Assembly (NCBI GenBank): GCA_945871085.1
Contig: CAMBVX010000010.1
Span: 1 to 45,332 of the forward strand
DNA length: 45,332 nt
Reading direction: 5' to 3'
Source of the DNA: Opitutus sp. GAS368
Lineage (GTDB): Bacteria > Verrucomicrobiota > Verrucomicrobiia > Opitutales > Opitutaceae
In this document: piece after piece, positions 11,930-35,717 of the stretch
Layout of the letters: every line of letters begins with the position of its first letter
Numbering within the stretch: the first letter of the stretch is position 1
Translations under genes and position numbers: made by a program
The notes under the pieces: model-generated
Seen by the model: only the letters and a program-made list of their open reading frames with translations
Told to the model about the DNA's origin: nothing
Database searches by the model: none

Positions 11930-11990
11930 GCGATGAACTACCGTGCGGCTCAACTTTATCGCGCAACGCGAAAGTCCCGCCGTGACCGAA

Positions 11991-12029
11991 CCTTCACCGT
12001 GGCGTCACGTGTTCGACACGTAGGTTACA
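11991..12029 (-). promoter_or_regulatory. PHO-box-like tandem repeat, site 1 (receptor/phytase divergent region)
   Basis: On the minus strand four hexamers start exactly 11 nt apart: TGTAAC, TGTCGA, TGACGC and TGAAGG. An 11-nt period of TGTCA-like units is the PhoB PHO-box layout. The site lies between divergent phosphate-related genes and points toward the TonB receptor. Found by eye; no matrix score is available. Confidence 0.4.
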
Positions 12030-12173
12030 ACGCGGCGGCGGGCGCGCACGCGTCCCCTCTCGCTCGTTTTCAAAAAAATCACCGGTGCTCGCCCGCGGAG
12101 GCGAAATGTCACACGACCGTTTCAAGATCGCCTCATTTTTGTGACCCCTGCCGGTTATCAAAGTAGCTCACTC

Positions 12174-14057
12174 ATGCATCCCACCACGCAGATTCTTCGC
12201 CTCCTCACCCTCGCGGCAGCTACGGCCACCGCTCTCACTCTCCCCGTTTTGGCTCAGCCGGCCCCGGTCACCGTCGGGGTAAACGGCCAATACTTTATCA
12301 ACAACGGCCTCGTCGGCGTGGGTCGGATTCCCGCCGCCACCAAGGACAAATTCGGCGAGACCCTCGGTTCGTTCTCGGCGCTGACCCACGACGCAAGTTC
12401 CTGGAAGCGTGCGGCCAACGGTTCCTACAGCGGAACCTTCTACATGCAGCCGGACCGCGGCTACAATAACCCCGGCACCACGAACTGGCGCGGACGTTTC
12501 TTCACCCTTGCGATTACCTTCAGTCCATCGCTCATCGGCTCCCCTGCGCAGAATCAAGTCGGCATCGCCGTCGCTGATACCACCCTGCTGACCGAAGCCA
12601 ACGGCACCCCCTTCACGGCGCTGGATACGGCGGCCGGTGCGGCCGGCGTGCGCGCGGCATCAGGCTCGCTGCCAGCGATGCCCCAGGGCTCCAACGGTCG
12701 GCTCTCGATCGATGCCGAGGGCATTGTGCGTCTGCCCGACGGCACGCTTTACGTCAGCGATGAATACGGTCCCTACATCTACAAATTCTCGGCGAGCGGC
12801 GTGCTCCAAGCCGCGATCCGCCCCCCGGCGGCTCTCATCCCCCAACGCGCCGGTGCCGATTCATTCGCGTCCAACAACCCGGCGCCCGGCCAGCCCGCGC
12901 CCGCACCACTCAACCCGACCGTCGGTCGCCAGAATAACCAGGGTTTCGAAGGACTGACGCTCTCGCCCGACGGCAAGACTCTTTTTGTGCTCCTCCAATC
13001 CTCGACCATCCAAGACGGTGGCACCGGCGGCGCGAGCGTGACTCGCTTCAACACCCGTCTGCTGGCCTACGATATCTCCGTCGCCAATCCGACCCTCAAG
13101 GGATCTTACGTTTTGCAACTTCCCACCACGCGGACGGCGGCAGGTGCCACACTAATCTGCGCCCAAAGCGAAATCCTTGCGATCAACAACACCCAGCTCC
13201 TCGTGCTGGCCCGCGACGCCGGCTTTGGTCACACCTACCCGATCGCGACTTCGAACTACCGCAAGATCCTCATCTACGACATCAGCGGCGCAACGAACAT
13301 TGCGGGCACCCGGTTCGACAATCCCGCCAATCCGGTCGCTCCCCTCGGCGTCCTCGACGCTTCGGTCAAAGCCGCGACGCGCACCGAATTCATCGATATC
13401 AACGACGGCGCCCAACTCGCCAAGTTCGGACTCCGCAACGGCCCGACCGACGACAACAACAACCTGTCCGAAAAGTGGGAGGCTATGACCCTCGTGCCCG
13501 CGCTCGATCCGTCCGCACCGAACGACTACTTTTTGTTCGTCGGCAACGACAACGATTTTATCACGCAGAGCGGCCTCCAGGACGGTGTCGCCTACGCGCA
13601 TCCCTCCGGCATGGAGAACGATTCGATGCTGCTTGTGTACCGCGTGACCCTGCCCGGTCGGATGCCGAACGTCTCCAGCCGTGCGCAAACCGGCGCCGGT
13701 GCCAATGTTCACGTCGGTGGATTCTCCGTCACCGGACCGCGCCCCAAGCAACTGCTCATCCGTGGCGTCGGCCCCGGGCTCGCCAACTTTGGCGTCGCTG
13801 GAGCCTTGGCCGATCCCACCCTCGAAGTTTTCAACGCAGCTGGCGAACTGATCCTCGCCAACGACAACTGGGCTTCGTCGGTGAACCTCGCTGAAATGCG
13901 CGCCGCGACGACTGCCGCCGGGGCCTTCGCACTGGGCGACGCCAGCAAAGACGCGGCGCTGCTCGTCCTGCTCGATCCGGGCAGTTACACGGTGCAAGTG
14001 AGCGGAGTCGCTGGCACGACTGGCATCAGCCTGGTCGAGGTCTATGAAGTGCCGTGA
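12174..14057 (+). CDS. Secreted phytase-like esterase (esterase-like activity of phytase family) with VEVYEV C-terminal domain
   Basis: About 627 residues. Seen: signal peptide (LTLAAATATALTLPVLAQP), then a beta-propeller-like body with the marks of the phytase-like esterase family: YMQPDRGYNNPGTTNWRGRF, LPDGTLYVSDEYGPYIYKF, NQGFEGLTLSPDGKTLFVLL, and KWEAMTLVPAL. The last 125 residues are a distinct domain (QLLIRGVGPGLANFGVAG, LADPTLEVF, NDNWASS, PGSYTVQVSG, final VEVYEVP) matching the end of the beta-helix protein. The family is linked to hydrolysis of phosphate esters such as phytate, but true phosphatase activity is not assured. ATG 12174 is chosen because it opens the signal peptide; GTG 12141 adds eleven unlikely residues. 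It is divergent from the TonB receptor, and its stop overlaps the next small gene (GTGA). Confidence 0.8.
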   Translation: MHPTTQILRLLTLAAATATALTLPVLAQPAPVTVGVNGQYFINNGLVGVGRIPAATKDKFGETLGSFSALTHDASSWKRAANGSYSGTFYMQPDRGYNNPGTTNWRGRFFTLAITFSPSLIGSPAQNQVGIAVADTTLLTEANGTPFTALDTAAGAAGVRAASGSLPAMPQGSNGRLSIDAEGIVRLPDGTLYVSDEYGPYIYKFSASGVLQAAIRPPAALIPQRAGADSFASNNPAPGQPAPAPLNPTVGRQNNQGFEGLTLSPDGKTLFVLLQSSTIQDGGTGGASVTRFNTRLLAYDISVANPTLKGSYVLQLPTTRTAAGATLICAQSEILAINNTQLLVLARDAGFGHTYPIATSNYRKILIYDISGATNIAGTRFDNPANPVAPLGVLDASVKAATRTEFIDINDGAQLAKFGLRNGPTDDNNNLSEKWEAMTLVPALDPSAPNDYFLFVGNDNDFITQSGLQDGVAYAHPSGMENDSMLLVYRVTLPGRMPNVSSRAQTGAGANVHVGGFSVTGPRPKQLLIRGVGPGLANFGVAGALADPTLEVFNAAGELILANDNWASSVNLAEMRAATTAAGAFALGDASKDAALLVLLDPGSYTVQVSGVAGTTGISLVEVYEVP

Positions 14058-14966: not shown

Positions 14967-15026
14967 GCCGCCCGTCGGCCCTCGGATCGCTCCGTCCCTT
15001 TGTCTCCGCCTCCACCCTTTTCCCTC

Positions 15027-17033
15027 ATGCATCATCATCCACGCCTCCTCCTTGCCGCAGCCACACTCTTGGCCGCGTCGTTCTCTCCGGCGACCGCCGC
15101 TCCGATCGTCTCGCGACTCACCCCGCCGAGCGATCTCTTCACCTTTAAGGATCCGAATCCCCCCTACATTTCGCGTTTCCTCCCGGGCCAACGTTTCGAT
15201 TTGCAGGCCACGATTTCTCCGGACGCCGCGCAAAACATCGCCGGGGTAAAATTCTACGTCAATAACACCGAAGTCCCGGGGGTGATAACACTCGTGCGCG
15301 CCACTGTCACCACGCCGGCCCTACCGACCAATACCCTCGTCGCCACGCTCCGCGCCTACAGCCACCTGGTGCCCGGCGTCCACCGCCTCACCGTCAGCGC
15401 CACGCAGCTCCCCGATGGCCAGTCCGTGATCGCCACGGGCAATTTTGAGGTCGTCAGCCTCGGCACCTCGATCGGTCCAAAAACGAAGAACATCATCCTC
15501 ATGATCGGCGACGGCATGGGCATCGCCCACCGCACGGCTGCCCGCATCGTCCTCAATGGCGTCAGCCAAGGCAAATCCATCGCCCCGCTCGCGATGGACA
15601 CGTTTCCCGTCACCGGTCTGATCCAAACTGCCTCGCTCAATTCCATCGTCACCGATTCCGCCCCCGGCGCCTCCTGCTATTCGACCGGCAACAAGAACAA
15701 CAACAACCAAGAAGGCGTGTTCCCGGACGACACGCTCGATGCCTTCGACAATCCCCGCATGGAATACATGGGCGAATACTTCGCCCGCACGCAGGGAAAA
15801 TCTCTCGGTCTCGTCACCACCTCCGATGTCTTCGACGCCACTCCCGCCGCCCAGGCAATCCACACTCAGAATCGCGGAGCGGGCACCGGCATCTGCGACC
15901 AATACCTCGACGAGGCATCCGTGAAGGCGAATCTCACGGTGCTCCTCGGCGGCGGCCGCAAATGGTTCCTGCCCTCGACCACCGCCGGCTCCGCCCGGAA
16001 CAACGCCACCGATTACGTGCTCCCCGCTGAACTCGCCACGGGTTGGGGTGCTGCCGCCGGCGCCTTGGATCCAACTCGCGACCTCCTCGCCGATTTCCAA
16101 AAAGCCGGCTTCGCCTACACCGCCAACGCGACGCAGCTCAAAGCCCTTCCCGCCAACACCGGCAAACTCCTCGGTCTCTTCGCACTCTCCAATATGAATG
16201 TCGCCGCCGACAAAATCGACGGTCGTCGTGGCAACCCCGCCGTCGTAAATGAATTCGGCTTCCCTGATCAACCCATGCTCGACGAGATGATCGACGCCGC
16301 GCTCCCGATCCTGGCGAAGAACCCCGCCGGCTTCGTGCTCATGGTCGAAGGGGCCTCCATCGACAAGCAGGCCCACAATATGGATACCGACCGATGGATT
16401 CTCGAAACGATCGAGTTTGATCGCGCCATCGCCCGCGCCAAAGCCTTCGCCGCGGCCAACCCCGACACACTCGTCTTGGTCACGGCCGACCACGAGTGCG
16501 CCGGTGTCAACATCATCGGTGCCTCCACGGTCACCCAAGCCAGCCTGAATACCCGCGCCAACTCCGGCGGCGGTGCCGCCCAGCTCCGCGACCCCGCGCC
16601 CGGCTCCGCCACTCCCGTCGTCGGCGTCTACGAACTCGCCGGCTTTCCCGTGTATGGAATCCAGCCCGACGGCTACCCCGCCACGACCAATCCCGACCGG
16701 AAGATGCTCATCGGCTACGCCGGCGGTTCCGACCGCTACGAAGACTGGCAAAGCAATCCCCGCCCCATCCGCGACACCCAACAACCGTTCAACGGCACCG
16801 CCCCCCTGAACTCACACCCGAATAATCCGCTCGACCGCAAAACGGCCGGAAACTTCCTGATCACCGGCCACGTCAACGGCACCAGCGCGGTCCACACCGC
16901 CTCCGATATCCCCATCTCCGCCTACGGCCGCGGGGCCGCCCACTTCACCGGCACGATGGATAACACGGACGTCTTCTTCCGGGCCATGAAGGCCGCCCTC
17001 GTCGGTGCCGACACCACGGTCGCGGAACGTTGA
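15027..17033 (+). CDS. Alkaline phosphatase (PhoA family), secreted, with N-terminal Ig-like region
   Basis: 668 residues, longer than the usual 450-550 because of an N-terminal beta-sandwich-like region (about 55-140; GQRFDLQATI, VKFYVNNTEV, GVHRLTVSAT). Seen: signal peptide ending SPATAA; metal ligand MIGDGMG (Asp162); catalytic TDSAPGA with nucleophile Ser211; MVEGASIDKQAHNMD; VTADHECAGV. These are the standard PhoA-family metal and nucleophile positions, so it should release phosphate from monoesters outside the cytoplasm using zinc and magnesium. The start at ATG 15027 opens the signal peptide. It is followed by a strong terminator and probably shares the PHO-box-like promoter at 14340 with the preceding gene. 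Confidence 0.93.
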   Translation: MHHHPRLLLAAATLLAASFSPATAAPIVSRLTPPSDLFTFKDPNPPYISRFLPGQRFDLQATISPDAAQNIAGVKFYVNNTEVPGVITLVRATVTTPALPTNTLVATLRAYSHLVPGVHRLTVSATQLPDGQSVIATGNFEVVSLGTSIGPKTKNIILMIGDGMGIAHRTAARIVLNGVSQGKSIAPLAMDTFPVTGLIQTASLNSIVTDSAPGASCYSTGNKNNNNQEGVFPDDTLDAFDNPRMEYMGEYFARTQGKSLGLVTTSDVFDATPAAQAIHTQNRGAGTGICDQYLDEASVKANLTVLLGGGRKWFLPSTTAGSARNNATDYVLPAELATGWGAAAGALDPTRDLLADFQKAGFAYTANATQLKALPANTGKLLGLFALSNMNVAADKIDGRRGNPAVVNEFGFPDQPMLDEMIDAALPILAKNPAGFVLMVEGASIDKQAHNMDTDRWILETIEFDRAIARAKAFAAANPDTLVLVTADHECAGVNIIGASTVTQASLNTRANSGGGAAQLRDPAPGSATPVVGVYELAGFPVYGIQPDGYPATTNPDRKMLIGYAGGSDRYEDWQSNPRPIRDTQQPFNGTAPLNSHPNNPLDRKTAGNFLITGHVNGTSAVHTASDIPISAYGRGAAHFTGTMDNTDVFFRAMKAALVGADTTVAER

Positions 17034-21771: not shown

Positions 21772-22935
21772 GTGAAAATCGCCCTTGTCACCGAAACATT
21801 CCCTCCGGAAGTAAATGGCGTGGCGATGACGTTCGGTGTCATCGCCCGCGAACTCGGTCGACGCGGCCATTCCGTCACGGTCTACCGGCCGCACCGCGCC
21901 GACCTTTCACTCGCTCGGGCCCAACCGGATTTCGAGGAAGTCCCGCTGCCAGGATTCCCTGTGCCCGGCTACCCGCTCTTGCGCTTCGGCCTGCCCGCCG
22001 GCCCCACGCTCCGTCGCCAATGGCGTGCGCACCGCCCCGACTTGGTGCACGTCGTGACGGAAGGTCCGCTCGGCGCGTCGGCGATCACCGCCGCGCGGGC
22101 ACTCGGCATTCCGGTGACCTCGAGTTTTCACACAAATTTTCACGCTTACACCCAGCACTACGGCTACGCCCGCCTCCATCGCCTCGTGCTCTGGTGGCTG
22201 CGGCGCGTCCACAACCGCACCGCGCGCACTTTTGTGCCCACCGTCGAACTTTGCACCGAGCTTGAGGCCGTCGGCTTTCGGGATCTCGCCGTCCTTTCGC
22301 GCGGCGTTGACACGTGGCAGTTTCATCCCGCCCGGCGCTCCGGTGACCTGCGCCTGAAGTGGGATGCGGCGCCGGAAAACCCAGTCGTGCTGCACGTCGG
22401 CCGCATGGCTCCGGAGAAAAACTATCCGCTGCTGTTTGCGTGCTTTGCCGCCATGCGGGCGGCCAATCCCCGCTGCCGTTTCGTGCTCGCCGGGGAGGGC
22501 CCCCTCAAGGCCAAACTTGTGCGCGACCACCCCGAGTGTACTTTTGCCGGGTTTTTTTCGCGCGAAGAAATTGGCCGTTACTACGCGTCCGCCGATATCT
22601 ATATCCACGCCAGCCTCACGGAGACCTTCGGTAACGTTCTCACCGAAGCCCTGTCCAGCGGCCTCGCCGTCGCCGGATTTGACTACGCCGCCGCCCGGCA
22701 GTTTGTCCAACATGGCCACAACGGTTTGGCGGTCCCCACCGACCGGCCCGACATGCTCGTGGATGCCGCGGCGCGGCTGGCGACCGACGCCCCCTTGCGG
22801 GCCCACCTCCGGGCCTCGGCCCGCGCCGCCGTGGAACCGCAGTCGTGGGAAACCGTGATCGGCCGCTTCGAATCCGACTTGGCCGAAGTGGTCGCCCGCT
22901 CTCCCTCCCCCGCCCTCCGCCCTGTCGTCGCATGA
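21772..22935 (+). CDS. GT4 family glycosyltransferase, probably diacylglycerol glycosyltransferase (Agt/SqdX-like role)
   Basis: A 387-residue GT-B enzyme. Seen: N-terminal ETFPPEVNGVAMTFGVIARE, the usual opening of the MgtA/PimB/SqdX group; SSFHTNFHAYTQHYG; LSRGVDTWQFHP; donor-binding HVGRMAPEKNYPLLF; and the E-x7-E motif in ASLTETFGNVLTEALSSG. It transfers a sugar from a nucleotide donor in the cytoplasm, probably at the membrane surface. It heads a four-gene operon with a PlcP-like gene. In other bacteria PlcP and a GT4 glycosyltransferase (Agt) are paired and replace phospholipids with glycolipids when phosphate is short; I infer the same here. The start is GTG. The donor sugar cannot be told. 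Confidence 0.75.
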   Translation: MKIALVTETFPPEVNGVAMTFGVIARELGRRGHSVTVYRPHRADLSLARAQPDFEEVPLPGFPVPGYPLLRFGLPAGPTLRRQWRAHRPDLVHVVTEGPLGASAITAARALGIPVTSSFHTNFHAYTQHYGYARLHRLVLWWLRRVHNRTARTFVPTVELCTELEAVGFRDLAVLSRGVDTWQFHPARRSGDLRLKWDAAPENPVVLHVGRMAPEKNYPLLFACFAAMRAANPRCRFVLAGEGPLKAKLVRDHPECTFAGFFSREEIGRYYASADIYIHASLTETFGNVLTEALSSGLAVAGFDYAAARQFVQHGHNGLAVPTDRPDMLVDAAARLATDAPLRAHLRASARAAVEPQSWETVIGRFESDLAEVVARSPSPALRPVVA

Positions 22936-24122
22936 AAAAAGCCCTCGTCCTCGTTCTCACCGCCGGTTTTGGCGAAGGTCACAACGCCGCCGCCCGCGCG
23001 CTCGCCGCCGCGCTCGATGCCAGCCATGGTCCGGGCACCGCCCGCTTGGTCGACGTGTTCGCTTTGGCTTCGCCGCGGCTCAACGAACTTTCCCGCCGAC
23101 TTTACCTCGGCATGATCAATCGCACCCCGCGTCTCTGGAGCGCGGTCTACGCGTGGGTCGACCGCACCGCCCTCTTCCCCGCCATGCTCCCGTTCCTCCA
23201 CCGGGAGACCCGCGTCTTGGACCAGATCATCACTGCGGAACAACCGGCCATTCTCTGCAGCACTTATCCCGTCTACGCGTTCCTGCTCGATAAACTCGCC
23301 CGTGACGGCCGGGCGCTGCCGCCGCATTTCAACATCGTCACCGACTCGATCAGCATCAACTCGCTGTGGTGGCGCACCCCGTGCGCAGGCTGGTTCGTCC
23401 CCAATCCCGACTCCGCGGAAGTGCTGCACCGCGCCGGTATTCCCGCTCGGCTCGTCCACCCGGCCGGGTTTCCCGTCACGTCGTTTTTCAGCGCCCACGC
23501 CCATGAGCTGCAACCTCCCGGGCTCGCCGGCGGCGCGACGCCGCGGGTCCTCTACATCATCAATTCCGGCACGCGCGATGCCGAGGAGACCGCCACCCAA
23601 TTGCTCGCTGAACGCGGCTGGTCCGTCACCTGTGCCGTCGGCCGCGACGAGCGCCTCCGCGCTCGCCTGGAAAAACTTGCCGCCATCCGCTCCCACCCGG
23701 CGACGATTCTGGGCTGGACCGACCAGATCCCTCGCTTGCTGCTGACTCACCACGTCGTCGTCAGCAAAGCCGGCGGTGCCACCACCCAAGAAGCTATCGC
23801 CGCTCGTTGCCCGATGATTGTGAACCAAATCGTGCCCGGGCAGGAAGAGGGCAATTATGAACTGCTGCGTCGCCACGGTGTCGGTGCCCTCGCCGAGACC
23901 CCGGCCGCCATCGTGCGGGAACTCCGCCGCGCTTTCGCCGACCAGGGCCGCGTGTGGAGCGAGTGGCGGAGCGCCCTCAGTCATCTCACCCGCCCCGAGG
24001 CCGCGCGCGATATCGCCGACCACGTGCTCGCCCACGCGGCTTGCCGCGACGAACCCGTGCCGGTTCCGCTGCAAAACCGGGCGGCGACCGCGTCAACCCG
24101 GCTCGCTACGTCGTCCGCATGA
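22932..24122 (+). CDS. MGDG-synthase-like GT28 glycosyltransferase
   Basis: A 396-residue protein. Seen: TAGFGEGHNAAARALAAAL at 10-28, the signature opening of the MGDG synthase N-terminal domain, LPPHFNIVTDSISINSLWW, and a C-terminal donor-binding part with ILGWTDQIPRLLLTHHVVVS, KAGGATTQEAIAARCPMIV and PGQEEGN. These features place it with MGDG synthases and UgtP-type diacylglycerol glycosyltransferases, which add hexose to diacylglycerol. The ATGA overlap with the GT4 gene and the ATGA at its own stop put it inside a tightly coupled operon. Together with GT4 it could build mono- and diglycosyl diacylglycerol. Acceptor and sugar are inferred. Confidence 0.75.
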   Translation: MKKALVLVLTAGFGEGHNAAARALAAALDASHGPGTARLVDVFALASPRLNELSRRLYLGMINRTPRLWSAVYAWVDRTALFPAMLPFLHRETRVLDQIITAEQPAILCSTYPVYAFLLDKLARDGRALPPHFNIVTDSISINSLWWRTPCAGWFVPNPDSAEVLHRAGIPARLVHPAGFPVTSFFSAHAHELQPPGLAGGATPRVLYIINSGTRDAEETATQLLAERGWSVTCAVGRDERLRARLEKLAAIRSHPATILGWTDQIPRLLLTHHVVVSKAGGATTQEAIAARCPMIVNQIVPGQEEGNYELLRRHGVGALAETPAAIVRELRRAFADQGRVWSEWRSALSHLTRPEAARDIADHVLAHAACRDEPVPVPLQNRAATASTRLATSSA

Positions 24123-25063
24123 AGACCTGCTTTATCTTTAACCCGACTTCGGGGCGCAACCGCCGCCGCACCGGCCTGGCAACCGACCTCCGTGACTTTA
24201 TCGAGTCCCGCTCCCTCGACGCCACGGTCGCCACCACGGAGGGCCCGGGTCATGCCACTCAACTTGCCCGCGACGCGGCCCTTTCCGGCTGCACCACGGT
24301 CGTCGCCGTTGGCGGTGACGGCACAATGAACGAAGTCGCTCAGGCTCTGTTGCACACCCCGGCCGCCCTCGCGCTCGTCCCCTGCGGCTCCGGCAACGGA
24401 CTCGCCCTCCACCTCGGCGTGCCGACGGCACTGCTGCCGGCGCTCAACCTCGTCGCCCTCACGCACGGGCGGGTCGCCCTCATCGATACGGGCAGTGCCA
24501 ACGGACACCCCTTTTTTAATGTAATGGGGCTCGGGCTCGATGCCGACGTGAGCCGCCGCTTCAACACGCTCACCTCGCGCGGCCTTCCGGCCTATGCCCG
24601 CACCGCCCTCGCCGCCTTCCGCGCCCTGCGCACTGAGCGCGTGCTCATCTCGACGGCCGAGCGTCGCGAGACCCTCGATACGCTCTTGGTCGCAATCGCG
24701 AACTCCGACCAATACGGCAACAACGCCCGCATCGCGCCCGGCGCGCGGATCGACGATGGTTCGCTCGATCTGATCGCCGTGCGGCCCGTGGGGCTCATCG
24801 GTGCAGTTACCCTCGCCGCCCGGCTCTTTTCCGGCCGGTTTGATCAAAGTGCGCACGTCTGCCGACTCCGGGGACCGAGCTTCGTCATCGAACGCGCCGC
24901 CCCGGGCCTCATCCACACCGATGGTGAAACTCACGAAACCGGCGCCACGGTCGGAGTTCTGGTCCACCCGCGCAGCCTGCGCATGGTCGTGCCTGCCACC
25001 TCGTCCGCTGTCGCAGCGAGCGACGACCTCGCGCCGGCCGGCTTTGCCTTCCAGTTGCCATGA
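24119..25063 (+). CDS. Diacylglycerol kinase family (YegS/LCB-type) lipid kinase
   Basis: A 314-residue protein. Seen: IFNPTSGRNRRR at the N-terminus, VVAVGGDGTMNEVAQ with the nucleotide-binding GGDGT at 65-69, PCGSGNGLALHLG, FFNVMGLGLDADVS, and a C-terminal beta-sandwich with IHTDGETHE. This is the DAGK catalytic domain family, which phosphorylates diacylglycerol or related lipids. Coupled by ATGA to the genes on both sides. In a PlcP operon the likely job is to return part of the released diacylglycerol to phosphatidic acid and so balance the flux; a bacterial DAGK-like protein next to plcP/agt fits this. The exact lipid is not shown. Confidence 0.8.
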   Translation: MKTCFIFNPTSGRNRRRTGLATDLRDFIESRSLDATVATTEGPGHATQLARDAALSGCTTVVAVGGDGTMNEVAQALLHTPAALALVPCGSGNGLALHLGVPTALLPALNLVALTHGRVALIDTGSANGHPFFNVMGLGLDADVSRRFNTLTSRGLPAYARTALAAFRALRTERVLISTAERRETLDTLLVAIANSDQYGNNARIAPGARIDDGSLDLIAVRPVGLIGAVTLAARLFSGRFDQSAHVCRLRGPSFVIERAAPGLIHTDGETHETGATVGVLVHPRSLRMVVPATSSAVAASDDLAPAGFAFQLP

Positions 25064-25881
25064 AAAACCTCCTCCGCGTCCGCACGGTCATCCTGTCCGA
25101 CGTCCATCTTGGCACCGTCGAATCCAAAGCGGCCGAAGTGAACCATTTTCTCCGGCATACGCGTTGCGCAAAACTCATTTTGAACGGCGATATCATCGAC
25201 GGCTGGCAACTCACCCGCTCCGGCCAGTGGACCAAAGCCCACACTCGCTTCATCCGCATCGTCCTCAAGAAACTGGAGAAACGCGACACGGAGGTTATCT
25301 ACCTCCGGGGCAACCACGACGATATCCTCGCCTCCTTTCTCCCGCTTGATTTCGAGAATCTCCGCATCGTCGAAGACTACATTCACGAGACCCCGCGCGG
25401 CCGCTACCTCGTCCTCCACGGCGACGTCTTCGACACCATTACGAAAAACTTTGTCTGGCTCGCGCACGTCGGCGACTGGGGCTACCAATTCCTCCTGAAA
25501 CTAAACCGCGCCTACAACGTGTGGCGCTCGTGGCGGGGAAAAGAATATTGGTCGCTCAGCAAAGCCATCAAGGCCCGCGTCAAACAGGCGGTCAGCCACG
25601 TCGGCGATTTCGAAACTCACATCGTCGAACTCGCCCGGGCGCGCGGCTGCACCGGCGTCATGTGTGGGCACATTCACACGGCGGCGGACAAAATGATGGG
25701 CGACATTCATTACTTGAATAGCGGAGATTGGGTGGAATCACTTAGCGCCGTCGTCGAGCACTTCGACGGGCGCTTCGAACTCATCCATTTTACGGACTTC
25801 GTGCGCGATTTCCCCCTCGACCCCGTCGACGGTGGCTACGACGACGCCGTCGACACGATCCCCGTCGCGGTGACCAGCTAG
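25060..25881 (+). CDS. plcP: Calcineurin-like metallophosphoesterase, PlcP-like phospholipase C (alternatively LpxH-like)
   Basis: A 273-residue protein without signal peptide. Seen: metal-binding motifs SDVHLG (Asp14, His16), NGDIIDGW (Asp44), RGNHDD (Asn85, His86), LHGDVFD and CGHIHT, and the C-terminal YLNSGDWVESLSAVVEHFDGR, which closely recalls PlcP proteins such as that of Sinorhizobium. PlcP removes the phosphorylated head group from phosphatidylcholine, -ethanolamine or -glycerol under phosphate limitation, giving diacylglycerol. Annotation pipelines often label this family UDP-2,3-diacylglucosamine diphosphatase. Last gene of the glycolipid operon, coupled by ATGA. The partnership with two diacylglycerol glycosyltransferases and a diacylglycerol kinase favours PlcP over LpxH. 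Confidence 0.7.
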   Translation: MKNLLRVRTVILSDVHLGTVESKAAEVNHFLRHTRCAKLILNGDIIDGWQLTRSGQWTKAHTRFIRIVLKKLEKRDTEVIYLRGNHDDILASFLPLDFENLRIVEDYIHETPRGRYLVLHGDVFDTITKNFVWLAHVGDWGYQFLLKLNRAYNVWRSWRGKEYWSLSKAIKARVKQAVSHVGDFETHIVELARARGCTGVMCGHIHTAADKMMGDIHYLNSGDWVESLSAVVEHFDGRFELIHFTDFVRDFPLDPVDGGYDDAVDTIPVAVTS

Positions 25882-27460: not shown

Positions 27461-28579
27461 ATGCCCGTTCTCACCCTGTCTCCCGCCCTTGCCCTGCTGG
27501 CGGCGTTCACCCGCTTCTCCCCCACCCAACCCCTGCACACTTTTTTCCGCGCCGCTGGCTACAAACTGCGGCCGCCCCGGCCGCTGCCACACACGCCGGC
27601 GGTCACCCAGGCCCAAAGCGACGTCCTCGCCCGCGGCGAGGCCACCCTCAGTCAACGCGCCACCGTCCTGTGCGAGCGACGGTTCGGCGCAATCCCCACC
27701 ATCGTGCTCGGCGGCTTTGTGCCCGACTCCACCGAACAAGTTTTCCTGTTACGCGGCTACCTGCTGCGCCGGGGCAGCGTCTACTATTTCAACTACCCGC
27801 GCGGAGGATTTTCGCCCGCGTTGATTTGCGCCCAGCTCGACGACCTCGTCGCGGAGCTGACCACCGTGCACGGCCAACGGCCCGTCGTCTTGGGCGTCAG
27901 CTTCGGCGCCGGTCTGGTGCTGGACTGGCTCCGGCGCGCGCGCGCGGCCCACCGCTCCCCGGATATCCGCGGCGTGGTCCTGGTGAGCCCGGTGGCCTGC
28001 GCCGCCGACATCGTCGTCCCCGGCGAGGCCAAGGCCTCCACCTTGATCGGTCGCGCGCTCAAACCCTACCTCGATAGCCGCGCGCCGGTGGGCCCGGAAG
28101 TCATCGATCGTTCCCGCGCGATCTTCGCCAAGATCTTCGAAGCGGGAGCCCAAAATCGCGGCGCCATCCGCTCCCTTCTCACGCCGGGAGAACTGGGCCA
28201 ACTGCGCGATCGCGTCCTGGCCGCGATCCAGGATCTCGCCCCCGCCGGGGCCTGCGAACGCGTCGACGCCCTGCGCACCATGCCGCCGCTTTCACCCTGG
28301 ATTTCGGCCGGCCAACTGCCTCTCACCGAGGCTCCGGCGCTCGTGCTCTACGCCGAAAAAGAAACCGCCGTGCTCGCGGCCGGCTCGCCGACCCGCGCCG
28401 CCTTTGATTCGGCGATGAAAGCCATCTTTCCCTGCGGGGAACTCCGAGTCGTCTCGGGTGCCCCCGGCGGCAGCGTGGTGCAACACGCGTCACTTATTTT
28501 CCACTACTTCCAGTTCCTCCCGCACTTCGCGGCCTTCTATCATGGGGTGAAGTCGCACAAACTCCCGGTCGCCGCATGA
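27461..28579 (+). CDS. Alpha/beta hydrolase fold protein
   Basis: A 372-residue protein from ATG 27461 (an upstream start at 27419 adds 14 residues of low-quality sequence). Seen: GFVPDSTEQVFLLRGYLLRR, YYFNYPRGGFS, the nucleophile elbow GVSFGAG with Ser147, VVLVSPVACAADIV, and a late Asp/His region (LVLYAEKETAVL, VVQHASLIFH). The family includes esterases, lipases and acyltransferases. It is coupled to the GH3 gene by an ATGA overlap, so the two products probably act together; a hydrolase that removes or edits the amide or thioester product of GH3 is one idea. No signal peptide is obvious. Confidence 0.75.
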   Translation: MPVLTLSPALALLAAFTRFSPTQPLHTFFRAAGYKLRPPRPLPHTPAVTQAQSDVLARGEATLSQRATVLCERRFGAIPTIVLGGFVPDSTEQVFLLRGYLLRRGSVYYFNYPRGGFSPALICAQLDDLVAELTTVHGQRPVVLGVSFGAGLVLDWLRRARAAHRSPDIRGVVLVSPVACAADIVVPGEAKASTLIGRALKPYLDSRAPVGPEVIDRSRAIFAKIFEAGAQNRGAIRSLLTPGELGQLRDRVLAAIQDLAPAGACERVDALRTMPPLSPWISAGQLPLTEAPALVLYAEKETAVLAAGSPTRAAFDSAMKAIFPCGELRVVSGAPGGSVVQHASLIFHYFQFLPHFAAFYHGVKSHKLPVAA

Positions 28580-30159
28580 TCCCCAAAAGCCTCTGCACCC
28601 TCGGTGCGGCTGTCCTGTCGGCGGCGGCGAGCCGACGCCTGCGGCAAGTGGCCGCCGCCCCTGGCCACCAAGCCCGCGTTTTTTCGCGTCTCACCCGGCA
28701 ACTCGCCGCGACCTCTTATTGGCATGAGGCCGGGGTGACACCGACGATGAAGTATCCCTCCTTTCAACAACGCCTCGCCCCTCATAGCTACGAACGTCTC
28801 GCCCCCGCCGTCGAGCGGATGAAGCGTGGCGAGGCCGATGTGCTTTGGCCCGGACGCTGCACGCATTTTGCCATCTCGTCCGGCACGACCGTCGGCCGCA
28901 CGAAGTATCTTCCGATCACCGCCGGGATGCTCGACCACTTTCGCCAGGCCGGGCTCGATTCGTTACTCTATTATTCGGCGCGCACAGGGAGCGCCAACGT
29001 CTTCCGCGGTCGACACTTGTTTCTCGGCGGATCGACCGCCCTTTCGCCCCTGCCCGAGATGCTTCCGCACGAGGCCTACGCCGGTGATTTGAGCGGCATC
29101 ACCGCGCTAAACTTGCCCGGGTGGGTCGAGAAACATCTGTATGAACCCGGCGCACAGATCGCCCAAATAACGGATTGGCCCGCCAAGCTCGACGCCATCG
29201 TCCGTCGCACGAGTGGGCTCAACATCACTATGCTCGCGGGGATTCCGAGTTGGGTCTTGATTTTGGCCGCCGCCTTGCGGGCACACGCTGCCACCAACGG
29301 AAAATCGACCCGCCACCTGCAAGCGATCTGGCCCAACCTCGAGTGCTTCGTCCACGGCGGCGTCCCCCTCGATCCGTTTTCCCGGGAACTACGTTCCGCC
29401 CTCGGCCCCACGGTCAATTTTCACGAAGTCTATCCCGCCTCCGAGGGCTTCATCGCCGCGCAAGATTCCGCGCCTGAGCAGGGGCTCCGCCTGATGGCCA
29501 ACGCCGGGATCTTCTACGAATTCATTCCGATGGCGGAGTTCGATGACTCGCGCCTCGAGCACCTCGGCCCGAAGGCCGTGCCCCTCGCCGGAGTGCGGGT
29601 CGGCATCGACTATGCACTCGTGATGACGACCCCAGCCGGCCTCGCGCGCTACGTGATCGGCGACATCGTGCGTTTCATTTCCACGGAGCCCCCGCGGCTC
29701 ATCTACGTCGGACGCACCAAACTCCAGCTGAGCGCGTTTGGCGAGCACGTCATCGAAAAGGAGGTCACCGACGCGTTACTGGCCGTCTGCGGGCGCCACG
29801 ACTGCACGATTGGAAATTTCCACGTCGCCCCGATTTTCGTAGACGCCGCAACCAATCAAAAACGCGGGCAACACGAGTGGTGGATCGAACTACGCTCCGA
29901 CTCATCACCCCCGGTCACCCCTGCGCAATTGGCCAACGGCTTGGACCTCGAACTCCAACGCCTCAACGACGACTACGAAGCCAAACGCCTCGGCGGCGGC
30001 CTCGCCCCACCGTGCGTGCGTCTGGTCGCGCCCGGGACGTTTGAAAATTGGCAGCGCAGTCACGGCAAGTGGGGCGGCCAGCATAAAATGCCCCGTTGCC
30101 GCAGCGACCGCACCATCGCCGACGAGCTGGCCCGACTGACGGCCGTCGCGCGAAATTGA
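28576..30159 (+). CDS. GH3 family acyl-acid amido synthetase-like protein
   Basis: A 527-residue member of the GH3 branch of adenylate-forming enzymes. Seen: ATP-binding SSGTTVGRTKYLPIT (101-115), HEVYPASEGFIAAQ near 280, RYVIGDIVRFIS, and a C-terminal domain with LSAFGEHVIEKEV. Plant GH3 enzymes activate carboxylates as acyl-AMP and join them to amino acids; bacterial members mostly lack assigned substrates. Coupled to the alpha/beta hydrolase by ATGA. Its place between two lipid-remodelling operons makes an N-acyl amino acid (phosphorus-free lipid) product an attractive guess, but nothing in the sequence proves it. Confidence 0.8.
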   Translation: MIPKSLCTLGAAVLSAAASRRLRQVAAAPGHQARVFSRLTRQLAATSYWHEAGVTPTMKYPSFQQRLAPHSYERLAPAVERMKRGEADVLWPGRCTHFAISSGTTVGRTKYLPITAGMLDHFRQAGLDSLLYYSARTGSANVFRGRHLFLGGSTALSPLPEMLPHEAYAGDLSGITALNLPGWVEKHLYEPGAQIAQITDWPAKLDAIVRRTSGLNITMLAGIPSWVLILAAALRAHAATNGKSTRHLQAIWPNLECFVHGGVPLDPFSRELRSALGPTVNFHEVYPASEGFIAAQDSAPEQGLRLMANAGIFYEFIPMAEFDDSRLEHLGPKAVPLAGVRVGIDYALVMTTPAGLARYVIGDIVRFISTEPPRLIYVGRTKLQLSAFGEHVIEKEVTDALLAVCGRHDCTIGNFHVAPIFVDAATNQKRGQHEWWIELRSDSSPPVTPAQLANGLDLELQRLNDDYEAKRLGGGLAPPCVRLVAPGTFENWQRSHGKWGGQHKMPRCRSDRTIADELARLTAVARN

Positions 30160-31305: not shown

Positions 31306-31429
31306 TATCAATCGCCCAAATGATTCAGACTTTGATTTGCCGGGTAGCCGCGAGCGCCAGCGAGGGTTGATCCGTCCACTCGCTGGCGCTCGCGGCCACC
31401 GAAAAGTCCAGAGTTCAAAGGACGTTGGG
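31306..31429. repeat. 124-bp hairpin repeat, copy C (between two broken genes)
   Basis: Full-length copy, ATATCAATCGCCC to CAAAGGACGTTGGG, with a few changes in the stem (AGGGT for AGTGG; GGCCACC for GGCTACC). The ppk2 stop codon (31415-31417) lies inside it and the kinase remnant begins at its other end. Confidence 0.9.
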
Positions 31430-32301
31430 ATCAAACTGCCGTTCGGGGAGGACGATCGGATCTCGCGCCACTTCGGTGTAGTTCACCTGGCTCAGCAGAT
31501 GATGGATGCAGTTCAACCGCGCTTTCTTTTTTTCCACCGCCGGCACGACCCACCACGGAGCCTCCGGGATGTGCGTCCGCTGCAGCATCACTTCCTTCGC
31601 CTTCGTGTAGAGTTCCCACCGTTTGCGCGACTCCAAATCCATCGGACTGAGTTTCCATTGCTTCAACGGATCATTGATCCGGCAGCGGAACCGAAATTCT
31701 GTTCCTCGTCGGAAATGGAAAACCAATACTTGATTACTTGGATGCCGGAACGCACGAGCATCTTTTCGAATTCGGGCACCGACCGAAAAAATTCTTCATA
31801 CTCCGCATCGCTGCAAAATCCCATCACCCGCTCCACGCCCGCCCGGTTATACCAACTCCGGTCAAACAGCACCCTCTCGCCCGCCGCCGGAAGATGCGCG
31901 CTATAGCGTTGGAAATACCACTGGGTCTTCTCGCGGTCCGTCGGGGCGGGCAACGCGGCCACCCGACACACACGGGGGTTCAGTCGTTGCGTGATCCGCT
32001 TGATCACTCCGCCCTTGCCGGCCGCATCACGCCCCTCGCACACAATCACCAGACGGTGTCCGGTTTCCACCACCCAGTCGTGGAGCCGGACCAACTCCCC
32101 CTGGAGCCGGAACAGCTCGGTAAAATAAACGCGGCGCGCCGCCGCATCAGAGTCCCCTTCGGTCGGTCGCGACGCGGTCCCAGGTTCCGTCGCCTCCCCA
32201 TCTTCGCGCTCCATTTCCAATTCCTCATCGAACTCATCAATCGCCTCACGGTGAATCCGCTTAAATAAGAGACTTTCGGGAGAGGGTGTGGGCTCGGCCA
32301 T
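31415..32301 (-). pseudogene. ppk2: Polyphosphate kinase 2 (PPK2), frameshifted
   Basis: The first frame (from ATG 32301) carries CEGRDAAGKGGVIKRI (Walker A), TDREKTQWYFQRY, VLFDRSWYNRAGVERVMGFC and YWFSISDEEQ, then breaks. The second frame continues at once with EFRFRCRINDPLKQWKLSPM, THIPEAPWWVV, ARLNCIHHLLSQVNY and VVLPERQF. One missing base near 31698 explains both; no slippery heptamer is there. PPK2 moves phosphate between polyphosphate and nucleotides. The last residues (about DPNVL) and the stop are encoded by the 124-bp repeat, so the native C-terminus may be trimmed too. It could be a real mutation or a sequencing error. It is divergent from btaA, with a PHO-box-like site facing it. 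Confidence 0.85.
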
Positions 32302-32401
32302 GGGAAAAATGAGGGTTGGCGGACGGCGCTGGTTCAAGTGCAGGCCGATGCAACGGTCGCCGAAATTCCCGGTCAAGCGACACGGCCGGGACTCATCCAG
32401 T

Positions 32402-32418
32402 TGTCACCTCCCCGCCAC
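32402..32418 (+). promoter_or_regulatory. PHO-box-like repeat, site 4 (btaA)
   Basis: TGTCAC at 32402 and CGCCAC at 32413, 11 nt apart; 13 of 18 bases match site 3 with no gaps. About 106 bases upstream of the btaA start. Found by eye. Confidence 0.5.
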
Positions 32419-32444
32419 AATTCGGCCGTCAAATGTCTGCGATT

Positions 32445-32461
32445 GTGGCAGGGCGGTGACA
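32445..32461 (-). promoter_or_regulatory. PHO-box-like repeat, site 5 (facing ppk2)
   Basis: On the minus strand TGTCAC and TGCCAC are 11 nt apart. Site 4 and site 5 are near-perfect inverted copies: 17 of 19 bases match between GTCACCTCCCCGCCACAAT and the complement of the second arm. Site 5 lies about 144 bases upstream of the ppk2 start. Confidence 0.45.
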
Positions 32462-32523
32462 TCTTATCGCGGCCCTGCGGTTGGACTTGTGCTCCCCCGG
32501 TGCACGTGGATCGCTCGGCGCCC

Positions 32524-33711
32524 ATGACCGCCGAACCTCGCACCACCCCGGCCCGCCGCTTCCTCAAAGCGACCCATGACCTGGTGTTTCACCACGTTCA
32601 CGGCGGCCAGTTGATCTACAACGCCTGCTGGGAAGATCCGCGCATCGACCGCGAACTCATGGCCCTCCAGGCCGACAGTCGCGTCGTGATGATCACCAGC
32701 GCCGGTTGCAACGCCCTCGACTACCTCCTCGATGGTCCGGCGGAGATCCACGCCGTCGACGTGAATCCACGTCAAAACGCGGTGCTCGAGCTCAAACTCG
32801 CTCTGATCCGCCGCGGCGACTTTGGAGATCTTTTTGAGTTTTTCGGGATCGGCTCGCACGAGCGTTTCAAACCCATCTATCGCTCGCTCCGGGCGGGGCT
32901 TTCACCTTCGGCCCGCTCATTCTGGGACGCGAAGATTTCGTTCTTCGATCCGGGCAGTCTGAAAAAATCTTTTTACTACCATGGTGCGGCGGGCATGGCC
33001 GCGTGGCTGATGGGGGGCGCTCTTTTCCGGGCGAAACCTAACATCAAGAATCACGCGCTGTGTCTGCTCGATGCCGATACGCTGGCCCAGCAGGCCCGCG
33101 TCTATGCCCTGCTGGAGCCAAAAATTTGGGGCAAGCTCAGCCACTGGCTCATCCGTCAGCGCATGGTCATGACGCTCCTGGGCGTCCCGGCACCGCAGAT
33201 CAAATTGATCGAGGACCACTATCCCGGGGGTCTCACCTGCTACGTGAAAGATAAACTCCGCCATGTCATGTCGGAATTACCGGCGCGCGAAAACTACTTC
33301 TGGCGCGTTTACATGACCGGCTCCTACACCCTTTCCTGCTGCCCGAACTACCTCCGCGAAGAGCACCTTCCCACGCTGGCCGAGCGCGCGGATCGGGTCC
33401 ACGCCCACACGTGCACGGTCTCGCAGTTCCTGCGGAAAAACCCCGGCGTATATTCGCATTACGTGCTGCTGGATCATCAAGACTGGCTGGCCTGGCACGA
33501 ACCTGCCGCGCTCGCGGAGGAATGGGCACTCATCTTTGCCAATAGCCGCCGCGGCACACGGATCTTAATGCGGTCTGCGGGTCTCGACCTCAGTTTCGTT
33601 CCTGCGGCCGTGTGCGCGCGCTTGCGTTTTTTCCCGGAACGCACCGAACCGCTCCATGTGACCGACCGCGTCGGGACTTACGGCAGCCTTCATTTCGCCG
33701 AAGTGCTATAA
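32524..33711 (+). CDS. btaA: BtaA-like S-adenosylmethionine:diacylglycerol 3-amino-3-carboxypropyltransferase (DUF3419)
   Basis: A 395-residue protein. Seen: LIYNACWEDPRID (about 30-42), VVMITSAGCNALDYLLDGPA (about 54-73), HAVDVNPRQNAVLELKLA, RSFWDAKISFF, and YMTGSYTLSCCPNYLREEHL. These are the hallmarks of the DUF3419/BtaA family. BtaA moves the aminocarboxypropyl group of SAM to diacylglycerol, the first step to the betaine lipid DGTS, in which no phosphorus is needed. The next gene is BtaB-like, as in Rhodobacter and Sinorhizobium where both are induced by low phosphate. ATG 32524 is chosen because upstream codons to 32338 cover the PHO-box-like sites and look non-coding. Confidence 0.88.
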   Translation: MTAEPRTTPARRFLKATHDLVFHHVHGGQLIYNACWEDPRIDRELMALQADSRVVMITSAGCNALDYLLDGPAEIHAVDVNPRQNAVLELKLALIRRGDFGDLFEFFGIGSHERFKPIYRSLRAGLSPSARSFWDAKISFFDPGSLKKSFYYHGAAGMAAWLMGGALFRAKPNIKNHALCLLDADTLAQQARVYALLEPKIWGKLSHWLIRQRMVMTLLGVPAPQIKLIEDHYPGGLTCYVKDKLRHVMSELPARENYFWRVYMTGSYTLSCCPNYLREEHLPTLAERADRVHAHTCTVSQFLRKNPGVYSHYVLLDHQDWLAWHEPAALAEEWALIFANSRRGTRILMRSAGLDLSFVPAAVCARLRFFPERTEPLHVTDRVGTYGSLHFAEVL

Positions 33712-33732
33712 CCCCGCGCCGCCTTTCGTTCG

Positions 33733-34386
33733 ATGAAATCCGTCGCCAACTCCCCCCGCCTTCGCGCCTCGGCCAGCTCTCACCCGCTCGTAAACTACTA
33801 TGCGCTTCACGCGCCCATCTACGATGCGACGCGCTGGACCTTTCTGTTCGACCGCAGCGTCGTCCTCGAACTCGCCCGCGCGGCCCAGCCCCGACCGACC
33901 CGCATTCTCGAAATCGGTTGCGGCACCGGTCGCAACCTCGCGCAACTGGCCCGCCTCTTCCCCCACGCCCACCTCACGGGCGTCGATCTCTCGACCTCCA
34001 TGCTCAACGTCGCCCGCCGCAAAACGGAGGCCTATGGAGCACGTATTTCACTCCTCGCGCAAAGTTACGACGCGCCCCTCGGCTCAACCGGCAACTACGA
34101 TCTCGTCCTGTGCTCTTACGCGCTCTCGATGTTCAATCCCGGTTTCGAGGCTGCGCTTGCGGCCGCTCAGGCCGACCTGACACCTCACGGGCACTTCGCC
34201 TTCGTCGACTTCCACGCCAGCCGCTGGCCCTGGTTTTCGCGCTGGATGCGGCGCAACCATGTGCGGATGGACGGCCAACTCCGCCCTCTCCTTCGCGCGA
34301 AGTTCACCCCCGTGATCGACGAACTTCATCACGCCTATGGCGGCGTCTGGGACTACTGCCTGTTTATTGGGCGCAAGAAAAACTGA
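33733..34386 (+). CDS. btaB: BtaB-like diacylglycerylhomoserine N-methyltransferase
   Basis: A 217-residue class I methyltransferase. Seen: HPLVNYYALHAPIYDATRWT, SAM-binding ILEIGCGTGRNLAQLARLFP (58-77), TGVDLSTSMLNVAR, YDLVLCSYALSMFNPGFE, and GHFAFVDFHASRWPWFSRWM. Size, order of motifs and position 21 bases after btaA support BtaB, which adds three methyl groups to diacylglycerylhomoserine to complete DGTS. It acts on membrane-bound lipid from the cytoplasmic side. Another small-molecule methyltransferase cannot be excluded from this sequence alone, but the pairing with BtaA is strong. Confidence 0.85.
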   Translation: MKSVANSPRLRASASSHPLVNYYALHAPIYDATRWTFLFDRSVVLELARAAQPRPTRILEIGCGTGRNLAQLARLFPHAHLTGVDLSTSMLNVARRKTEAYGARISLLAQSYDAPLGSTGNYDLVLCSYALSMFNPGFEAALAAAQADLTPHGHFAFVDFHASRWPWFSRWMRRNHVRMDGQLRPLLRAKFTPVIDELHHAYGGVWDYCLFIGRKKN

Positions 34387-34387
34387 G

Positions 34388-35326
34388 ATGCGGCGGGCGC
34401 GCACAGTTTGGGACTTTACGCTTTGGCCGGCATTGCTCGTGGCTTCGTGCCTCGGACTCGGATGCGGGCTGGCGCACGACTGCGGACCGCTCGCGTTCAA
34501 CCTCACTTACCTGATCCTCGCGTTGACGCTTTTTGTTTTGGAAAAAACCCAGCCCCACGAAACCGAGTGGCTCCAGTCGGACGGGCAGGAAATCCCCGAT
34601 CTCGCCCACACGCTCCTCACGAAAATCGCCGTGCAGGTTACCGTGGTCACGTTGGCGAACCTCGGCATCGCTCAACAATTTGGCGCGCGGGGTGGCGGTA
34701 GCGTGTGGCCCAGTGCGTGGCCGTTGGCGGCGCAAGTCACCCTCGGACTCGTCGCCGCGGAATTTGGCCTCTACTGGGCCCACCGGCTCGCTCACGAATG
34801 GCTGCCACTCTGGCGTTTCCACGCCGTGCATCATAGTTCCGTCCGACTTTGGTTTTTCAATACCGGCCGGTTTCACTTCGTCGATACCCTCAAGAGCATG
34901 ATTTTTGCCGTGCCCATCCTCGTGATCGCCGGCGCACCGGGCGCTGTCATCATCTGGATCAGCGGGCTGACCGCCTTCATCGGCATCCTGACTCACTGCA
35001 ATGTTCGGATGCGCTTTGGCTGCCTCAATCTGGTCTTCAACACCCCCGGTCTGCATCGCTGGCACCACAGCATGGACCTGCGGGAGGGAAACAAAAACTA
35101 CGGCGAAAACCTCGTCCTCTGGGATCAGCTGTTCGGCACGTATTTCGACGATACGCGACGACCGCCCCCCACGAAAATCGGGATTCGCGAAACGATGCCG
35201 ATCACCTTTCTCGGGCAACTACTCGCGCCTTTTGCTTGGGCACGTTTTCAACGACCCATCCAACCCAGGCAGCCGCTCCGTGGTCGACCCACTGTCGGGC
35301 CGCCATCACTTCCACCTGAACGTTGA
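34388..35326 (+). CDS. Fatty acid hydroxylase / sterol desaturase superfamily membrane enzyme
   Basis: A 312-residue protein. Seen: several hydrophobic segments (about 11-50, 78-100, 115-130, 170-205) and the di-iron histidine clusters of the superfamily: HRLAHEW (132, 136), HAVHHSS (145, 148, 149), H163, H203 and HRWHHS (223, 226, 227). It should hydroxylate or desaturate a lipid chain in the membrane using oxygen. It begins one base after the btaB stop, so it is in the bta operon. The last 30 residues are Pro/Arg-rich and not typical of the family. A betaine-lipid acyl chain is the most natural substrate by context; this combination is not one I know. Confidence 0.82.
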   Translation: MRRARTVWDFTLWPALLVASCLGLGCGLAHDCGPLAFNLTYLILALTLFVLEKTQPHETEWLQSDGQEIPDLAHTLLTKIAVQVTVVTLANLGIAQQFGARGGGSVWPSAWPLAAQVTLGLVAAEFGLYWAHRLAHEWLPLWRFHAVHHSSVRLWFFNTGRFHFVDTLKSMIFAVPILVIAGAPGAVIIWISGLTAFIGILTHCNVRMRFGCLNLVFNTPGLHRWHHSMDLREGNKNYGENLVLWDQLFGTYFDDTRRPPPTKIGIRETMPITFLGQLLAPFAWARFQRPIQPRQPLRGRPTVGPPSLPPER

Positions 35327-35544
35327 GCCGGTCGCGGGTGCGCGGGCCATGGCACAGCTGCTGTCCATCCTCACCCGTCCTCACCTCGCCCAGCGCAACC
35401 CAATCGTCACGATGATCTCACCGTCAACCGCTCAACCGGCTTCACCGCGCGACGAGTAGCCTAGGGTGAAATGTTCTGACCCACCACCTGCCGTCGCCGC
35501 GTCCAGCCGTGCAACCGAGCCCCCGGCCCGCCCAGCCTGGTTTT
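35327..35544. other. Intergenic, nothing recognised
   Basis: After the hydroxylase stop, 218 bases before repeat copy D. A frame through 35459 reads with some protein-like stretches (LSGRHHFHLNVEPVAGARAM) but has no own start or family match, so I do not call it. Confidence 0.4.
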
Positions 35545-35668
35545 ATATCAGTCGCCCAAAAAATCCAGACTTTGCTTTGCCCGGTAGCCGCGAGCGCCAG
35601 CGAGTGGTGATCCGTCCACTCGCTGGCGCTCGCGGCTACCGAAAAGTCCAGAGTTCAAAGGACGTTGG
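35545..35668. repeat. 124-bp hairpin repeat, copy D
   Basis: Full copy, ATATCAGTCGCCC to CAAAGGACGTTGG, with a perfect 25-bp stem (35583-35607 with 35616-35640) around TGATCCGT, the same loop as copy B. Confidence 0.92.
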
Positions 35669-35717
35669 TCTTACTCGGTTAAGTTCATTGCCAAAAAAAA
35701 CCGAATTCTCAGAGGGA

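Follow-up and report, generated by a model that had tools for sequence, protein, structure and literature searches.

Contig CAMBVX010000010.1 of Opitutus sp. GAS368 (GCA_945871085.1) carries a three-gene unit in which the betaine-lipid genes btaA and btaB are followed by a gene for a putative membrane hydroxylase related to OlsE. The stretch analysed (positions 1 to 45,332, hereafter the window) makes up contig 10 of a draft genome of 7.37 Mb in 630 contigs (95.8% complete), and the nearest named homologues come from metagenome-assembled genomes of Opitutus or Opitutae. All three genes run in the same direction on the plus strand. The first, btaA (32524–33711; PF11899/DUF3419, E 1.8e-99), is the sole DUF3419 gene detected in the window's genome; its product, with 11 relatives that are 73–94% identical, is predicted to be the S-adenosylmethionine (SAM):diacylglycerol 3-amino-3-carboxypropyl transferase of the first step towards diacylglyceryl-N,N,N-trimethylhomoserine (DGTS). 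After 21 bases follows btaB (33733–34386; SAM methyltransferase, PF13649, E 4.1e-19), which would supply the N-methyltransferase of the second step. The succession of a DUF3419 protein and a SAM methyltransferase that marks BtaA/BtaB is hence present, and btaB also stands immediately 3' of btaA in nine relatives with a close, uncut BtaA on the same stretch. The btaB stop codon (34384–34386) and the ATG of the hydroxylase gene (34388–35326, 312 amino acids; PF04116 FA_hydroxylase, E 1.3e-29) are one base apart; an earlier reading of the DNA letters (the original prediction) had given both this gap and the range 32524–35326, and both proved exact.

In the original prediction, the third gene was described as a di-iron lipid hydroxylase or desaturase with a full set of histidine clusters. 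The histidines were borne out, with H132, H136, H145, H148, H149, H163, H203, H223, H226, and H227 present in 81/81 aligned homologues (8 bta-linked, 73 others), and so was the hydroxylase half of the assignment. PF04116 was the sole Pfam match (E ≤ 0.001), and the sole NCBIfam match was NF052566 OlsE (335.2 bits, E 3.2e-100, residues 7–284 of 312). The desaturase half was rejected, as PF04116 stood alone and no desaturase family matched, the acyl-lipid desaturases (PF00487) included. The OlsE score is below the curated rhizobial equivalog cut-off (335 vs 475 bits). Two rhizobial plasmid proteins scored as controls reached 550.7 and 517.8 bits, five homologues unlinked to btaAB (from Verrucomicrobium, Kiloniellaceae, Dadabacteria, and the bta-less Opitutae locus L008) reached 331–388 bits, and the other scored PF04116 protein of the window's genome reached 113 bits. 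By these scores, the hydroxylase is a homologue of OlsE that lies beyond the rhizobial equivalog. The features of the wider OlsE-like group, i.e., nearly full-length homology, PF04116, and conserved histidine clusters, are all present, and by analogy with the family the enzyme would use di-iron chemistry.

The AlphaFold model of the hydroxylase (mean predicted local distance difference test score 82) showed long helices. Foldseek gave no significant match for it (best E 2.1), and a sequence search of solved structures with the hydroxylase and BtaA returned no real relative. A second-look structural comparison placed the yeast fatty-acid 2-hydroxylase Scs7p first (4zr1 and 4zr0, 186 residues aligned; Z 7.1 with a root-mean-square deviation of 5.5, and Z 6.4 with 4.8), with the next unrelated row at 2.5; this is a middling score, consistent with PF04116. 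Identity to Scs7p is 12–14%, and the substrate of Scs7p differs. As PF04116 is a broad family and the model resembles Scs7p at Z 7.1 only, the third gene might also encode an enzyme for an unrelated substrate (a sterol, a free fatty acid, or other) that is co-transcribed with btaAB by happenstance. We regard this as very improbable in view of the nearly full-length OlsE match, a score far above that of the genome's other scored PF04116 protein, and the conserved position of the gene in relatives.

Conservation of the gene order was determined across 250 sampled genomes of the family (Opitutaceae), with a close hydroxylase defined by E < 1e-100, and BtaA divided into a close type (the window's, 73–100% identity) and a divergent type (40–44%). 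A close hydroxylase was present in 11 genomes and full-length BtaA in 19 (12 of the window's type, 7 divergent). Both the hydroxylase and close BtaA were found in eight genomes, and all eight have the order btaA-btaB-hydroxylase, seven on a single contig and one (G385) with an assembly break inside btaB. The adjacency is more than chance. Across a class sample of 286 genomes, hydroxylase homologues (E ≤ 1e-40) occurred in 6 and DUF3419 matches in 53 (50 over the cut-off), and the two were adjacent in the window's genome only. Among 80 homologue loci, the three genes stood together in six and a contig-cut btaB with the hydroxylase in one, all in Opitutae; the remaining 73 loci, which include the homologues outside Opitutae, had no BtaA within the flanks fetched. 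The link to btaAB supposed in the original prediction therefore holds for relatives with close btaAB and a hydroxylase, but the gene also occurs without BtaA, as detailed below. The hydroxylase tree unites the bta-linked rows with loci L008 and L050 in one group (94/94, not starred), and the placement of L008 inside this group is not fixed. The copy at L050 (5001–5630, genome G452) lacks the first 78 residues and no btaB was found upstream of it, which may reflect gene decay or misassembly. As a separate observation, six Opitutaceae loci (L196–L200, L202) carry BtaA of the divergent type (42–44% identity) with no adjacent BtaB match at the threshold used.

The one-base distance to btaB and the btaAB-hydroxylase order in 8/8 genomes with close BtaA and the hydroxylase favour a substrate within the betaine-lipid pathway, i.e., DGTS or a precursor, hydroxylated on the homoserine headgroup or an acyl chain. 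The product would be the hydroxylated betaine lipid of the original prediction and, if the homoserine carried the hydroxyl group, a new lipid class, made by an OlsE homologue that the btaAB operon had recruited. Such an outcome is possible, but we consider it doubtful and not the best reading, since the characterised members of the OlsE lineage hydroxylate the ornithine headgroup and, elsewhere, the lineage accompanies aminolipid genes.

Genes of that kind, overlooked in the original prediction, lie about 4 kb upstream and would supply the substrate of an OlsE-type enzyme. An olsI-like gene (27461–28579, plus strand) encodes an alpha/beta-hydrolase and putative O-acyltransferase with weak PF12146/PF07859 matches and a GVSFG nucleophile-type motif, and it adjoins olsH in relatives. 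It overlaps by 4 bp with an olsH-like gene (28576–30159, plus strand; PF03321/PF23571/PF23572) for a GH3 amino-acid amido synthetase, a putative lyso-aminolipid synthetase, and both genes run in the direction of btaAB. The sole NCBIfam match of the GH3 protein was NF052613 OlsH (lyso-ornithine lipid synthetase) at 361.9 bits, below the cut-off of 620 bits, which was exceeded in 0/250 family genomes. The arrangement typical of the OlsH-OlsI pathway, with GH3 and alpha/beta-hydrolase genes joined in a single unit, is nonetheless present, and the pair is a candidate source of lipids of the ornithine lipid (OL) type, although with a GH3 protein below the OlsH cut-off. The pairing is kept in the fetched Opitutaceae OlsH regions, with the exception of the second GH3 gene of G000. 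The window's genome has two GH3 genes, and no OlsB/OlsF-type domain (PF13444) was found in it. The second OlsH-like GH3 gene (G000, contig C429, 740–2227, locus L214) scored 311 bits, and no OlsI-like neighbour was found for it in the 5 kb of sequence read. In the window and in G370 and G334, olsI-olsH, a gap, and btaA-btaB-olsE follow one another on the same strand; the same holds for G353 across a contig break.

A survey of lipid genes covered 66 hydroxylase-bearing entries, which correspond to 52 distinct genomes after removal of 14 duplicates. An aminolipid N-acylation gene of the OlsB/OlsF or OlsH type was present in 52/52. Outside Opitutaceae, this was PF13444 (E ≤ 2e-19) in 40/40 genomes, with strong OlsH in none and weak matches in four; within Opitutaceae, an OlsH-like GH3 protein (E < 1e-100) was found in 12/12, with a weak PF13444 match in one (G353). 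Full-length BtaA (E < 1e-95) was restricted to 22 of the 52 genomes (8/12 Opitutaceae, 14/40 others). The hydroxylase persists without BtaA in three Opitutaceae (G329, G443, and G509), which speaks against a DGTS substrate; in G509 (L008) it adjoins olsH-olsI in convergent orientation, and in G443 (L053, L210) it lies about 5 kb from olsH. G452 likewise had no BtaA over the cut-off, but this genome is 68% complete. Also against DGTS, four genomes with close btaAB (G377, G318, G231, and G483) have neither the hydroxylase nor a strong OlsH. Across the 12 close-btaAB genomes, the hydroxylase and strong OlsH (E < 1e-100) were both present in eight and both absent in four (Fisher p 0.002, or 0.018 if the weaker GH3 protein of G231, 3.5e-62, is counted; kinship is ignored in both). 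The BtaA tree did not resolve the placement of these four hydroxylase-less genomes among the others. Finally, the bta-linked hydroxylases have only two private alignment columns (Q97, R257), compared to between 3 and 29 in the four clades used as controls, and hence there is no sign of a switch of substrate in the bta-linked proteins.

Because a DGTS substrate leaves unexplained both the survival of the hydroxylase in bta-less genomes and its absence from btaAB genomes without a strong OlsH, action on the aminolipid of the OlsHI route is the most likely reading, and we hold it to be probable. The olsI-olsH-like pair would make an ornithine-type (acyl-oxyacyl amide) aminolipid via the GH3 route, and btaA-btaB would convert diacylglycerol into the betaine lipid DGTS. 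The third gene would provide an OlsE-type membrane di-iron hydroxylase that modifies the OlsHI product with a hydroxyl group at its amino-acid headgroup, presumably ornithine; OlsE is said to hydroxylate C4 of the ornithine headgroup. Its position behind btaB would then serve shared expression instead of action on DGTS. We propose that the lipid modules are kept together because all of them replace phospholipids under phosphate shortage. An enzyme active on both lipids, with the amino-acid headgroup of the aminolipid and that of DGTS as its targets, would account for the presence of the hydroxylase in all eight genomes that combine close btaAB with a strong OlsH, where it is tied to both pathways; the headgroups of an amide-linked aminolipid and of ether-linked DGTS are, however, structurally very different, and we consider such promiscuity improbable, more so than action on DGTS.

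Several observations weigh against the aminolipid as substrate. Within the window's genus (nine genomes sampled), the hydroxylase tracks btaAB exactly (five with both, four with neither), while OlsH is present in 8/9. The place after olsH lacks all three genes together in G402 and G164, and the TonB gene that lies 3' of olsE in G370, G334, and G353 comes next after the replaced stretch in G402; since G402 and G164 hold other sequence after olsH, btaA, btaB, and the hydroxylase gene come and go as one block. The association of the hydroxylase in the family sample is far stronger with close BtaA (Fisher p 2e-10) than with OlsH (p 0.012), the latter being weaker because OlsH-like genes are common (175/250). 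Four of the eight genomes with the three-gene order (G385, G330, G441, and G438) have OlsH on a different contig. The 40/40 count of PF13444 is a raw one for a domain that is presumably frequent in Proteobacteria, and the co-occurrence counts as a whole ignore kinship. At 362 vs 620 bits, the OlsH match of the GH3 protein does not fix the amino acid used. The gain and loss of the whole block inside the genus, with olsIH retained, as well as the association with close BtaA, favour a DGTS substrate. The joint movement of a tight operon is, however, predicted by physical linkage alone, whatever the substrate.

The nearest characterised relative is OlsE of Rhizobium and Agrobacterium (atu0318). 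According to passages of a review (PMC3972451), the ornithine moiety of ornithine lipids is what OlsE homologues hydroxylate, and Agrobacterium needs olsE solely for the hydroxylated lipid. This organism has homologues of both olsE and btaAB, and in the same passages it is described with ornithine-hydroxylated OL and with DGTS bearing 18:1 and 19:0-cyclo chains only. The hydroxylase of the window shares with OlsE the nearly full-length homology, PF04116, the histidine clusters, and a genome with aminolipid synthesis genes; it differs in an identity of at most about 50% to plasmid-borne rhizobial relatives, in its score (335 vs the 475-bit cut-off), in its place behind btaB, and in a partner aminolipid route of the GH3 type instead of OlsB. 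For this route, part of a 2025 study (PMC12493201) describes OlsH and the alpha/beta-hydrolase OlsI as making ornithine lipids in the planctomycete Singulisphaera acidiphila, states that OlsH homologues elsewhere may use other amino acids, and gives an OlsH tree with one verrucomicrobial homologue (Nibricoccus aquaticus). Both systems have a GH3 synthetase beside an alpha/beta-hydrolase in one unit; the pair in the window has an OlsH score of 362 of 620 bits and no OlsG gene in between, and is joined to btaAB and an OlsE homologue. The btaAB operons of Rhodobacter and Sinorhizobium and the plcP-btaAB cluster of Phaeobacter MED193 share with the window the btaA-then-btaB order, a phosphate-saving context, and phosphoesterase and glycosyltransferase genes in the region; the OlsE homologue as third gene and the aminolipid genes upstream set the window apart from them. 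Marine bacteria are known to carry plcP in the vicinity of btaAB or of glycosyltransferase genes, and PlcP has also been reported for Verrucomicrobia (PMC4796936, in part). Hydroxylated DGTS in amoebal bodies is described in a passage of PMC10057378, which also cites an alga; the hydroxyl group is placed on an acyl chain and may stem from auto-oxidation. The literature searched, outside of which most subscription papers lay, yielded neither an account of an OlsE homologue within a bta operon nor an enzyme that forms hydroxy-DGTS. The kind of system is thus known, and the combination of an OlsE homologue with btaAB and olsIH is new.

The region upstream (9071–30159) is, by its gene content, a phosphate-saving island. 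It begins with a TonB receptor gene (9071–11953) next to a gene for a phytase-like esterase (12141–14057, plus strand; PF13449, E 5.7e-42), followed by an alkaline phosphatase gene (15000–17033, plus strand; PF00245, E 4.1e-75). A glycosyltransferase gene (22845–24122, plus strand; PF06925; NF010135 at 141 bits, below the cut-off) resembles monogalactosyldiacylglycerol/diglucosyl-diacylglycerol synthases and would provide a phosphorus-free glycolipid. It is followed by genes for a YegS/diacylglycerol-kinase-like lipid kinase (23954–25063, plus strand; PF00781, PF19279) and an LpxH-like metallophosphoesterase (25060–25881, plus strand; PF00149). The latter is possibly a PlcP-type phospholipase C; its plasmid relatives (43–52% identity) are annotated as LpxH-type, i.e., as UDP-2,3-diacylglucosamine diphosphatase. 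G353 retains the gene order of the island, and G370, G334, G402, and G164 retain parts of it. In G353, one contig carries TonB, phytase, phosphatase, tetratricopeptide repeat (TPR), glycosyltransferase, kinase, phosphoesterase, methyltransferase, olsI, olsH, and the start of btaA, and the next contig begins with btaA, btaB, and olsE, at 73–95% identity. ORF (open reading frame) clustering around the fetched loci, read by eye, gave no neighbour family conspicuously conserved beyond Opitutae. One conserved verrucomicrobial island hence appears to combine three phosphorus-free lipid routes (glycolipid, GH3-dependent aminolipid, and betaine lipid) with a decorating hydroxylase, and these bacteria are predicted to make hydroxylated aminolipids via a route tested so far in a planctomycete alone. 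Sister genomes with and without the one gene block offer a clean test of OlsE-type action on a betaine lipid.

A conserved 40-bp motif (GGTGACATTT...CTTGnnCTTGtGC; 32453–32492, plus strand) lies about 70 bp before btaA. It was obtained by Gibbs search of nine Opitutaceae btaA upstream regions (score 333 vs 225–235 for shuffled sequences), and its conservation is inflated by shared ancestry. With a matrix built without the window, the window's btaA site ranked 1 of 90586 positions. The second-best match (11961–12000, minus strand) is located directly before the TonB gene. Matches before olsI, which rank 11th in the window and between 1st and 25th in eight relatives (near copies in several cases), are suggestive only. 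The motif differs from the canonical Pho box (CTGTCATNNNNCTGTCAT); in 21 upstream regions, those of btaA, olsI, and olsE, the best matches to this box did not exceed those in shuffled sequences (p ≥ 0.1). As no canonical Pho boxes were found, we infer phosphate control from gene content. No sigma-70-type promoters were found in 32300–35700.

Between olsH and btaA, the minus strand carries a frameshift-split polyphosphate kinase 2 gene (PPK2, 31415–32376; PF03976). Positions 4–150 of PF03976 fall in ORF 31663–32376 and positions 151–227 in ORF 31415–31726; the frame break at about 31700 marks either a frameshifted pseudogene or an assembly error. In two loci from genomes without the btaAB-olsE block (L222, 13240–14500; L221, 4530–5700), the spot after olsH is occupied by other sequence that is about 89% alike between both and, read by eye, appears to have coding capacity for a lysine/alanine-rich protein (minus strand).

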